Assembly: GCF_004684205.1 (NCBI RefSeq)
Contig: NZ_SRIO01000002.1
Coordinates: 1-64,000, forward strand
DNA from: Candidatus Macondimonas diazotrophica
GTDB lineage: Bacteria > Pseudomonadota > Gammaproteobacteria > UBA5335
Length of the DNA: 64,000 bases
Direction: 5' to 3'
A program made the position numbers and the translations under genes. Below, one piece after another: positions 47 through 58,032 of this stretch. The notes under the pieces are model-generated. The model had not been told where the DNA came from, did not search any database, and saw only the letters and a list, made by a program, of their open reading frames with translations. Within the stretch, counting starts at the first letter, position 1; each line of letters begins with the position of its first letter.

Positions 47-1186
47 TCAGATCAATTGAGACAGCTTTTCCACCGTGAAGGGCAGGCTGACGCCTAGGAA
101 GACGTCGGGGGAGGCTTCGGTATTGCCAAAACCGACCGAGACGTTCAGGACGCGATCCGGACTCAGGCGGAACCCAGTCGTGAGGTTGAACACACCGATA
201 GTCTGATCAAGGCTGGAAGCCGAGAGCCCGTTGGCGAACTTCAGGTCGGTTTCCTGCGCATAGCCCAACTGATACTGGAACGTCATCGAGACATCATAGG
301 AAAGCGCGAACGCGACGCCGAGCCCCAATTGGGCCTGCAGCCCCGGATCGACTTCGGTGAGGATCAATGGTTGACCGTCAAGCGTTTGACGAACCTGGTC
401 CAATCCATCTTCCTTGAAGCCCTGAATGAGGCTGAAAGAGCCAAATGCGACTACAGGGTCGATGACCTTGGAGACATTCACCCCGAGACTGGCAGAGTAG
501 TAGCCGTCGCCGGTAGCCAGTTCTTCACCAAGTTCAGTTTCGAAAGGACTCGAGCCGGTTGGTGCAGTCACTTCGCCCAGCAGGGTCCAGCGGGCTTGGC
601 CAGGAAGTGCTGCAAATGGCTGCCAGCGCAGACGCATCGAGACATCACCGATGTCGAATTCGGTTACGTCATCGACGTTGTCATATTTGCCGACCACCGG
701 CAATGCGAAACCCAGGCTCAGGTTGTCGAGCACGCCGTAATCGACGCTCAGGCGGGGCGTGATGGTGTGCTGAGCATCCTGAACGACGTCGATCGGCCGG
801 AAATCGACCACTTGAAAAGTGGGCTGCTGATTGCGGCCATTGCGCGTCTGCTCGATGATCAGGGCATCCTGAGAGCGGGCATCGCCGAAATACGTGTAAT
901 CGATGTTCAGGAAGATGTCCCACCAGCCCTGCTTCACCAGTGAGTAATCCTGCTGGGTCTTATTCAGGATCTGCTCGAGATTCTCTTCCTTGCTGGGATC
1001 GGACTCTTTCTGCCGCAGTACTTCGCGGGCACGTTCCTGCTCTTCAGGCGAGGCTTCCCCGGCCGCCTGTGCCCACAGGACTGAAGGAGCGGCCGCAGCC
1101 AACAGGCCGAGAAGCGTCATCGAAGCCAGCAAAGTGCGCTGTTTGGGTCGGTTGCTGAGACGGGAGAAGGCCGGTGATGTGATCAT
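47..1186 (-). CDS. Outer-membrane beta-barrel protein with N-terminal coiled coil (FapF-like)
   Basis: The 379-residue product has a signal peptide (about residues 1-39, hydrophobic core LLASMTLLGLLAAAA, likely cut near VLWA/Q). A charged helical stretch follows at about 46-80 and is probably coiled coil. From about residue 88 to the end there are alternating amphipathic strands with many aromatic girdle residues and turn-like DG/GD segments, as in a 10-14-stranded barrel. This order matches FapF, the outer-membrane secretion channel of Pseudomonas functional amyloid, but it also fits the broad MetA-type 'transporter' barrels. The start ATG has GGAAG about 4 bases upstream. The gene lies 65 bases downstream of the C39 peptidase gene on the same strand, surely one operon. 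FapF/FapD is known as a channel/peptidase pair; the assignment here rests on architecture and neighbour, not on an alignment. Confidence 0.7.
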   Translation of the reverse strand: MITSPAFSRLSNRPKQRTLLASMTLLGLLAAAAPSVLWAQAAGEASPEEQERAREVLRQKESDPSKEENLEQILNKTQQDYSLVKQGWWDIFLNIDYTYFGDARSQDALIIEQTRNGRNQQPTFQVVDFRPIDVVQDAQHTITPRLSVDYGVLDNLSLGFALPVVGKYDNVDDVTEFDIGDVSMRLRWQPFAALPGQARWTLLGEVTAPTGSSPFETELGEELATGDGYYSASLGVNVSKVIDPVVAFGSFSLIQGFKEDGLDQVRQTLDGQPLILTEVDPGLQAQLGLGVAFALSYDVSMTFQYQLGYAQETDLKFANGLSASSLDQTIGVFNLTTGFRLSPDRVLNVSVGFGNTEASPDVFLGVSLPFTVEKLSQLI

Positions 1187-1251: not shown

Positions 1252-1980
1252 TCAGCGTATGCCGACAGACCGGAAATTGGTGGCTTGCAATGCAGACCAG
1301 AAACCGGGAATTTCGAGCAGAGCCGTGCGTCGGATGCGATCTTCACCGATGAAGCTGAGATCGTTGTCCGACAGCGCGAAGCCGAAATTCTTTTCTTCCC
1401 CGATCTTGGGATAGACAATGAAGATGACCTTCGGCTCCCAGAATTTCTGGAACTGCGAGGTGGTCATGGTGAAGTTGCCCAGCGCCGGATCCGCGATCAG
1501 GACATGACCTGCATGAATCGACTTGAGAACCACGAAATGATCGAATCCGGCGTACTTGATGGGCACGATGCCGGGATGTTTGAGTGTCTCAAGGTCCGAA
1601 AACTCGGCCTTGAACCCGGCGCTGCGATAGCCGATCTGCGCCGCATAGCGCTTCATATCCAGAAGCGAAAATCCGCGCCGTTCGATGATTTTTTGGGTTT
1701 CACCGAAGCGCAGCATGCCGTTCATGGCATCCGTTTCAGTAACTTGCAGGCCGATGTATTCCTGCAAGATCGTCGTCAGCGACGCCGAACCACAACTGAA
1801 GTCGTATTGTTGGCGCACCACACCCTGATCCTTGAGCGCGCTCCAGGACGTGACGCCGATATGCTCACGCGACGGACCGTTCGGTCCCAGGATCGGCACG
1901 TCGATCCGATCGGATGCGACAGCGTGAAAGGGCAGGGATAGAAAACCGAGGAGTGCTATGCCGGACAAGCGCGAAGGCAT
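1252..1980 (-). CDS. Exported C39-family cysteine peptidase (FapD-like)
   Basis: The 242-residue product has a signal peptide (residues 1-22, cut near AVA/S), so it should work in the periplasm, unlike the cytosolic C39 domains of bacteriocin ABC exporters. The C39 signature is complete: Gln57/58 for the oxyanion hole, Cys63 in DFSCGSAS, His148 in GFDHFVVL and Asp164 in ADPALG. C39 enzymes cleave after double-glycine leaders, and FapD of the Fap amyloid system is a periplasmic member. No ABC transporter domain is fused or adjacent. AAGGA lies six bases before the ATG. It is the first gene of a two-gene operon with the barrel protein. Its natural substrate is not beside it; the GQ-motif proteins at 57-58 kb are candidates by motif. 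Confidence 0.85.
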   Translation of the reverse strand: MPSRLSGIALLGFLSLPFHAVASDRIDVPILGPNGPSREHIGVTSWSALKDQGVVRQQYDFSCGSASLTTILQEYIGLQVTETDAMNGMLRFGETQKIIERRGFSLLDMKRYAAQIGYRSAGFKAEFSDLETLKHPGIVPIKYAGFDHFVVLKSIHAGHVLIADPALGNFTMTTSQFQKFWEPKVIFIVYPKIGEEKNFGFALSDNDLSFIGEDRIRRTALLEIPGFWSALQATNFRSVGIR

Positions 1981-57049: not shown

Positions 57050-57442
57050 ATGAAAAAGGTTGTGTTGTTGGGTTCGCTCGCCGCACTGGCTATCACTTCT
57101 CTTCCCGTCAGTGCGCAAATGTCTAATCTGACGGATGTTCAGATGCGCGATGTGACCGGGCAGTCGATTCCAGGCTACACGGTAACGGTCGCCGGTTCAG
57201 TAACGGATACCTACACGGTGCCGTTTGCGTATCAAGTCTTCTCCAGCAAGGCACCTGTGACCGCGTCAAGTATTTCTGATCTGGTTGCAATTTGGGCGCC
57301 GAACTACCCTTCGAATGTGGCAGCAACCCGCAGTGGCTTTCTGACGGATGTGAACGGGGGGTTGGCGGCCGCTTCAGGCATTCTGCAGTCCAAGCCGTTG
57401 ATTGGCCCGTTCGTACCGAATGTGAGCATCACCGCGCCTTGA
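57050..57442 (+). CDS. Small secreted protein with GQ leader-like motif, copy 1
   Basis: A 130-residue protein of no family I can name. A Sec signal peptide (1-22, cut near VSA/Q) is followed at once by MSNLTDVQMRDVTGQS, in which Leu27, Thr28, Gln31, Met32, Val35, Gly37 and Gln38 fall in the register of a double-glycine leader. The rest is rich in Ser, Thr, Val, Ala and Pro, has no Cys and few charges, and shares PFAYQVFSSKAP, a YP...RS region and the end GPFVPNVSITAP with copy 2. GGAGGA lies seven bases before the ATG. It has its own sigma-54-type promoter and terminator. Confidence 0.8.
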   Translation: MKKVVLLGSLAALAITSLPVSAQMSNLTDVQMRDVTGQSIPGYTVTVAGSVTDTYTVPFAYQVFSSKAPVTASSISDLVAIWAPNYPSNVAATRSGFLTDVNGGLAAASGILQSKPLIGPFVPNVSITAP

Positions 57443-57456
57443 TTTCATCGGCCTGG

Positions 57457-57480
57457 AAGGCCGGATTTTCCGGCCTTTTT
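57457..57480 (+). terminator. Intrinsic terminator after GQ-motif gene 1
   Basis: AAGGCCGGA and TCCGGCCTT arms with a three-base loop and a run of five T residues. It separates the two paralogous genes, although partial read-through is possible. Confidence 0.92.
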
Positions 57481-57648
57481 CGAGTCGTCTATCTTTTCGC
57501 AATTGTTCATGAAAATTCACTTTTTGATTTTGTTTTCATGTTGGGTATGTTTTCTTTCGATTGATTTCTGATCTGTTTGCCCGGTGGCATCCAATCGGAT
57601 TCCGCCTTTCGATTAAAATGTTCATATTTTTCACTAGGGGACCATATA
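57481..57648 (+). promoter_or_regulatory. AT-rich upstream region of GQ-motif gene 2
   Basis: The stretch is strikingly AT-rich for this genome. It contains an inverted repeat, CATGAAAA (57508-57515) and TTTTCATG (57533-57540), which could be a regulator site. TTGATT (57525-57530) with TATGTT 16 bases later is a possible sigma-70 promoter. No -24/-12 site is seen here, so the two paralogues may be controlled differently. Confidence 0.4.
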
Positions 57649-58032
57649 ATGAAAAAGTACATCAAAATGGCGTTTGCCGGCGTTGCTCTTGCAGGTTTCT
57701 CGATGACCGTTTCTGCGGGCATGAGTGATCTTTCCGATCAAGATCTTCGTGACGTGTCGGGGCAAGCCTATTTTCTGAATGTTGGACTGAGTCAATATAC
57801 AGCGCCATTTGCCTATGAAGTGTTTTCGAGCAAGGCTCCGAGTTTTGTGGTCGACTACGGTCGCGACTTGGTGAGCACCTACGCGTCGGGATATCCCGCA
57901 AAGGTGAGTTCGGCGCGCTCAGCCGGCTTGGATCGGGCCAATATGGGCTTGTCGGCTGCGACCATGGCACTGCAGGCCATTCCTTTTGTCGGTCCCTTGG
58001 TTCCGCCGGTTTCCATTTCCACAGCGCCCTGA
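57649..58032 (+). CDS. Small secreted protein with GQ leader-like motif, copy 2
   Basis: A 127-residue paralogue of the preceding gene. The signal peptide (1-23, cut near VSA/G) is followed by MSDLSDQDLRDVSGQA, where Leu28, Ser29, Asp32, Leu33, Val36, Gly38 and Gln39 match the double-glycine leader pattern exactly except for the last residue. The body shares PFAYEVFSSKAP, YPAKVSSARS, a GLSAAT helix-like part and GPLVPPVSISTAP with copy 1. No Cys is present. AGGGGA lies nearby upstream of the ATG at 57649. Similar LxDxxLxxVxGQ starts occur in exported proteins of Acinetobacter and Pseudomonas, to my memory, with unknown function. Confidence 0.8.
   Translation: MKKYIKMAFAGVALAGFSMTVSAGMSDLSDQDLRDVSGQAYFLNVGLSQYTAPFAYEVFSSKAPSFVVDYGRDLVSTYASGYPAKVSSARSAGLDRANMGLSAATMALQAIPFVGPLVPPVSISTAP

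Follow-up and report, generated by a model that had tools for sequence, protein, structure and literature searches.

A double-glycine-type leader behind Sec signal peptides of unrelated secreted proteins, and its proposed role as a two-stage export tag paired with FilB-like C39 peptidases

Why would two small secreted paralogues carry, immediately behind a Sec signal peptide, a motif resembling the leaders that C39 peptidases recognize, and which enzyme might act on it there? In the 64,000-nucleotide stretch of DNA analysed here (the window), copy 1 (57050..57442, plus strand) is a 130-aa ORF composed of a Sec signal (residues 1–22), the leader QMSNLTDVQMRDVTGQ (residues 23–38; 57116..57163, plus strand), and a 92-aa body. 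Copy 2 (57649..58032, plus strand, with its ATG at 57649) encodes 127 aa, arranged as a signal (residues 1–23), the leader GMSDLSDQDLRDVSGQ (residues 24–39; 57718..57765, plus strand), and an 88-aa body. Each leader spans the 16 residues from the A-x-A site to a predicted cut after GQ, and the two proteins are 47% identical. Both ORFs are present where a preliminary description had placed them, with its residue numbering exact in both copies, and its statement that the bodies match no known family was borne out by Pfam and NCBIfam, neither of which returned a match to them. Full-length relatives of the bodies were found only within the same genus and family (56 genomes searched), and an AlphaFold model of copy 2, built from a two-sequence input, was too uncertain to be read (pLDDT 51). 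A terminator-like hairpin lies 3′ of copy 1 (57453..57480, plus strand), although it comes from a consensus scan only and such hairpins did not outnumber those in shuffled sequences; promoter and terminator scans of the window in general rose barely above shuffles.

The motif is neither private to this pair nor wholly uncatalogued. The first 39 positions of the Pfam family DUF6160 are matched by copy 1 at 25.1 bits and by copy 2 at 23.1 bits, so that the catalogued family overlaps the N-terminal motif while the bodies remain without one; both window proteins miss the gathering score of 27 bits, which other proteins of the genome exceed. When the source genome was searched with DUF6160, a Sec signal followed by a 16-residue leader ending in xxMxDxELxxVxGQ was recovered at 21 places. 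The aligned set gives the consensus (M/L)xx(M/L/I)xDx(E/A/Q)LxxVxGQ behind the signal peptide, with positions −12, −10, −7, −4, −2, and −1 held: M, L or I at −12, L or M at −7, V or I at −4 (21/21), G or A at −2, and Q at −1 (20/21). In the 20 intact leader proteins, the Q always follows the A-x-A signal-peptidase site at one and the same distance; in the first of those aligned, the site reads ASA and is followed by QMAEMKDQALADVNGQ, and the leader at C6:37639, MSMMTYDELAAVEGQ, likewise conforms to the motif. The bodies behind the Q fall into approximately 12 groups without BLAST similarity between groups, and we propose, from sequence comparison alone, that the leader may serve as a generic address on these unrelated bodies. 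When 28 leader proteins, drawn from several genomes, were aligned (all match DUF6160 and eight match NCBIfam FilA), conservation was confined to the N-terminus, and Q39 (copy 2 numbering) was the sole invariant column. Free variation of the L/D/L/V/G positions across the family, which the preliminary description had named as grounds for refutation, was not observed, these positions being held in the family-wide alignments.

Several members of the source genome's set are unusual. The 21st leader gene (G000:C8:61801-62169, minus strand) looks like a broken copy because a TAG stop falls inside the signal-peptide region. The protein at G000:C4:79349-80023 (minus strand), probably started from GTG, has a leader variant with GT instead of GQ (LIELSDAELSRIEGT), and G000:C9:50932-53662 (minus strand) holds a row of four small leader-bearing genes.

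The resemblance to double-glycine leaders can be judged against what is expected of C39 substrates, namely hydrophobic residues at −12, −7, and −4 and G or A at −2, all at fixed spacing, together with G, A or S at −1. The former are met by the leaders of this genome; the last is not, although G and A do occur at this position in homologous operons, and since −1 is mostly Q we use the term "double-glycine-type" rather than treating these leaders as canonical members of the class. We built a position-specific scoring matrix (PSSM) from 12 leaders of classical bacteriocins and of ComC, taken by us to be canonical, and scored it only at −12 to −2. Among 878 signal-peptide ORFs, the two window leaders ranked within the top 1.1% and 0.6%; when the columns of the 21 leaders were permuted 20,000 times, just one permutation scored equally well. 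Register, PSSM rank, and held positions together support the double-glycine-type leader claimed for the two paralogues, with its cleavage an inference. Signal peptidase should cut just before the leader, which would then become the N-terminus of the periplasmic form and so occupy its usual place.

A candidate enzyme is encoded at the other end of the window (1252..1980, minus strand) as a stand-alone, FilB/FapD-like C39 peptidase with an N-terminal signal peptide. Apart from a weaker lipoprotein, it is the only Peptidase_C39 match in the genome (PF03412, 71 bits). Its scores of 219 bits to NCBIfam FilB (curated cut-off 475) and 122 bits to FapD (curated cut-off 330) are both below threshold, and it is accordingly filed here as FilB-like. 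The protein satisfies the profile, fold, and catalytic-residue criteria of Peptidase C39: its Q57, C63, H148, and D164 are invariant among 55 stand-alone C39s, and its AlphaFold core (pLDDT >90) is matched by Foldseek to the peptidase domains of ComA, PCAT1, and LahT. In a tree it groups with leader-linked FilB homologues and not with FapD (branch support 89), and no fap substrate genes lie beside it. The adjoining gene (47..1186, minus strand), present in single copy, encodes a FilC/FapF-like outer-membrane channel, as judged from NCBIfam matches (FilC 272 bits, far under the curated cut-off of 630; FapF 56 bits) and PDB matches (FapF 5o65/5o67, E about 1e-11). This filBC pair lies approximately 55 kb from the two paralogues and is likewise separate from the remaining leader genes; the linkage in this genome is therefore genomic and not operonic. 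FilB proteins of Pseudomonas, Acinetobacter, and Marinobacter show an apparent N-terminal membrane anchor, whereas the signal peptide of the window protein looks cleavable.

The association between enzyme and leader was examined in two sets of genomes. In the first, comprising 276 genomes of the class, FilB was defined as a C39 scoring >200 bits to FilB and the leader as a DUF6160 match at E ≤0.001; FilB occurred in five genomes from four families, and the leader occurred in the same five (5/5) and in none of the other 271 (0/271). A further 34 genomes of this set have only lower-scoring FapD-type C39s, and DUF6160 is absent from them. In the second set (146 genomes from the order to which G015 belongs, FilB threshold >170 bits), all 17 FilB genomes had the leader (17/17), and a true leader was found in none of the remaining 129 (0/129). 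The co-occurrence with signal-peptide-bearing C39 peptidases that the preliminary description had put forward as a check is thus upheld. If genomes were independent, which they are not, the corresponding probabilities would be 8e-11 and 1e-22. Within a single genus, G302, with a FapD-type enzyme only, lacks the leader, whereas G338, G366, and G390 have both FilB and leader, and the same contrast recurs inside one family (f148). One additional, weak DUF6160 match in the second set (G336) was rejected as a leader, being a SIMPL-domain-like protein without GQ.

Physical linkage was assessed with a PSSM trained only on the source genome's leaders and applied within 6 kb of filB at 80 FilB loci of named genomes. 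Leader genes lay within this reach at 62 of the 80 loci, including those of Pseudomonas aeruginosa PA7, Acinetobacter, Massilia, Duganella, and Alcanivorax, and 18 of 18 further FilB genomes lacking nearby leader genes carry leader proteins elsewhere. A common gene order at many loci is leader gene (filA), filB, filC, and a fourth gene that we take, on our own reading of its sequence, to be FadL-like. Among 130 leaders at FilB loci, the −1 residue was Q in 87, R in 27, A in nine, and G in six. GQ is consequently not the fixed leader end that the two window copies had suggested, since Q, R, A or G may stand at −1 across the family. Paralogues lying side by side in the Massilia and Duganella relatives differ at this point of the leader, with GQ, GR, GA, and GG all represented, and so connect the GQ type with the classical double-glycine form. 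That the cut falls after Q is deduced by aligning these leaders with the GG and GA paralogues; no cleavage has been observed.

A parallel arrangement was found at loci with FapD-type enzymes, where the PSSM from the source genome placed two FapE N-termini at the top of 1203 signal-peptide ORFs. FapE, whose gene adjoins fapD, carries LSDxELxxLRG(G/R/K) behind its signal. The pattern (L/V/I)xxxx(L/M)xx(L/M/I/Q)RG(G/R/K) with F or Y as the next residue, into which R at −3 was built, occurs in the gene immediately downstream of the C39 at 20 of 34 non-FilB loci, compared with 6 of 1793 other ORFs; one of these 20 genes is FapE by NCBI's own cut-off. Published work describes FapD as an enzyme without a known target or recognition sequence (PMC5557850, PMC6173800). 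By mass spectrometry, FapE appears N-terminally processed, without N-terminal peptides, while FapA peptides were seen throughout the protein, i.e., unprocessed (PMC5557850). FapA-like small proteins in fap loci (L112-L134) nevertheless carry LSxxELxxxxG behind the signal (e.g., VSESALGNQRGM). The N-termini of FapB and FapC, which read L..V.GA in places, were excluded as leaders because they overlap the amyloid repeats of these proteins. Leaders resembling LSDADMDGVTAG occur in small secreted proteins encoded near stand-alone C39s of a third clade (G131, G229); small secreted proteins with the leader end (T/A)AG lie beside enzymes of this clade at L131:6199-7986 (plus strand) and L135:9715-10041 (minus strand). 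C39s of a TEG group did not form a single clade in the tree. One genome (G054, locus L141) has seven stand-alone C39 genes that are distant from FilB and have no recognized leader partner.

On this evidence, we consider it highly probable that the N-terminal ~39 residues constitute a two-stage export tag, in which cleavage, FilB as the enzyme, and export by FilC are all inferred. In the first stage, the Sec signal would move the protein over the inner membrane and signal peptidase would cut at A-x-A, so that the periplasmic form would begin with the 15–16-residue double-glycine-type leader. In the second, the periplasmic stand-alone FilB would recognize this leader and cut after G-Q, and the mature bodies may then reach the surface through the FilC/FapF-like channel encoded beside FilB. 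Both this route and the surface location are inferred by analogy with the Fap system, in which FapD and the FapE leader would form a sister pair with G-G, G-R or G-K. Weighing against the model are the separation of filBC from the leader genes in this genome, the sub-threshold FilB and FilC scores, the FapA peptides seen throughout that protein, and the membrane anchor of FilB in Pseudomonas and Acinetobacter.

The alternative that survives best, though we hold it unlikely, is that the motif stays uncut and serves to dock or retain the protein at FilB, FilC or a chaperone, with FilB binding it in the manner of the C39-like domain of HlyB. Such a tag would be expected to produce the same co-occurrence and linkage, and non-cleaving C39-like domains such as that of HlyB are known (PMC5557850), but all 55 stand-alone C39s retain the catalytic Q, C, H, and D, the fold of the window enzyme is that of active peptidase domains, and conservation of the leader is strongest at −2/−1, the pair typical of a cut site; moreover, FapD needs its catalytic Cys for secretion (PMC5557850). 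Cleavage by a different periplasmic protease seems very improbable: the genome does encode another C39-like protein with a weaker match (the C39_2-like lipoprotein at C7:68908), but this is of a different subfamily (PF13529), and it is the presence of FilB that separates leader from non-leader genomes, although the lipoprotein's own distribution was not part of that comparison. Chance resemblance, or mere ancestry of duplicated paralogues as the 47% identity of the copies might suggest, can be dismissed almost entirely in view of the ~12 unrelated body groups that carry the leader, the family-wide alignment, the permutation and null controls, and the separate leader families of other genomes.

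Beyond FilB-dependent two-stage export in this genome, we think it reasonably likely, with less assurance, that stand-alone periplasmic C39s form a general class of second-stage maturases with clade-specific, Sec-routed leaders: GQ (also GR, GA, and GG) for FilB, RG(G/R/K) on FapE for FapD, (T/A)AG for the third clade, and possibly TEG(A) for a fourth. Many small secreted "unknown" families, DUF6160 first among them, would then be defined by their leader and not by a common function. FilB has so far been annotated by name only, and a defined 15-residue leader with a matching enzyme clade and channel provides a testable answer to what periplasmic C39s cut, offers a function for the DUF6160 N-terminus, and allows the probable surface cargo of a genome to be listed. 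No literature linking DUF6160, FilB, and a leader was found, most subscription papers and preprints lying outside the search. Surface or biofilm roles for the bodies are suggested by the over-expression of FilF in Acinetobacter pellicles (PMC3203104).

Four known systems invite comparison. The likeness to Pfam DUF6160 (PF19657), to which Pfam assigns no function, is that the family's first 39 positions are signal plus leader, whereas the window proteins fall just under the gathering threshold and show nothing of the domain beyond those positions. Bacteriocin and ComC leaders, cut by the C39 domains of ABC exporters such as ComA, PCAT1, and LahT, are alike at −12, −8, −7, −4, and −2, and these systems have the C39 fold in common with the window peptidase; here, however, the leader stands behind a Sec signal, −1 is mostly Q, and the peptidase is periplasmic without a fused ABC transporter. 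The Pseudomonas Fap system (FapD, FapF, FapE) offers the same combination of Sec-exported substrates, a periplasmic stand-alone C39, an adjoining outer-membrane channel, and a comparable leader on FapE, but the FilB clade is separate from FapD, the −2/−1 pair here is GQ, and no FapA/B/C/E-like bodies are present, the substrates being many and dispersed. The Acinetobacter Fil system (FilA NF050077, FilB NF050078, FilC NF050079) shares FilB and FilC homologues with the window and has a FilA with the same leader, located 5′ of filB; in the present genome, by contrast, filBC stand alone with scores below the NCBI cut-offs, and the leader proteins, which are short and scattered, share only the N-terminus with FilA.
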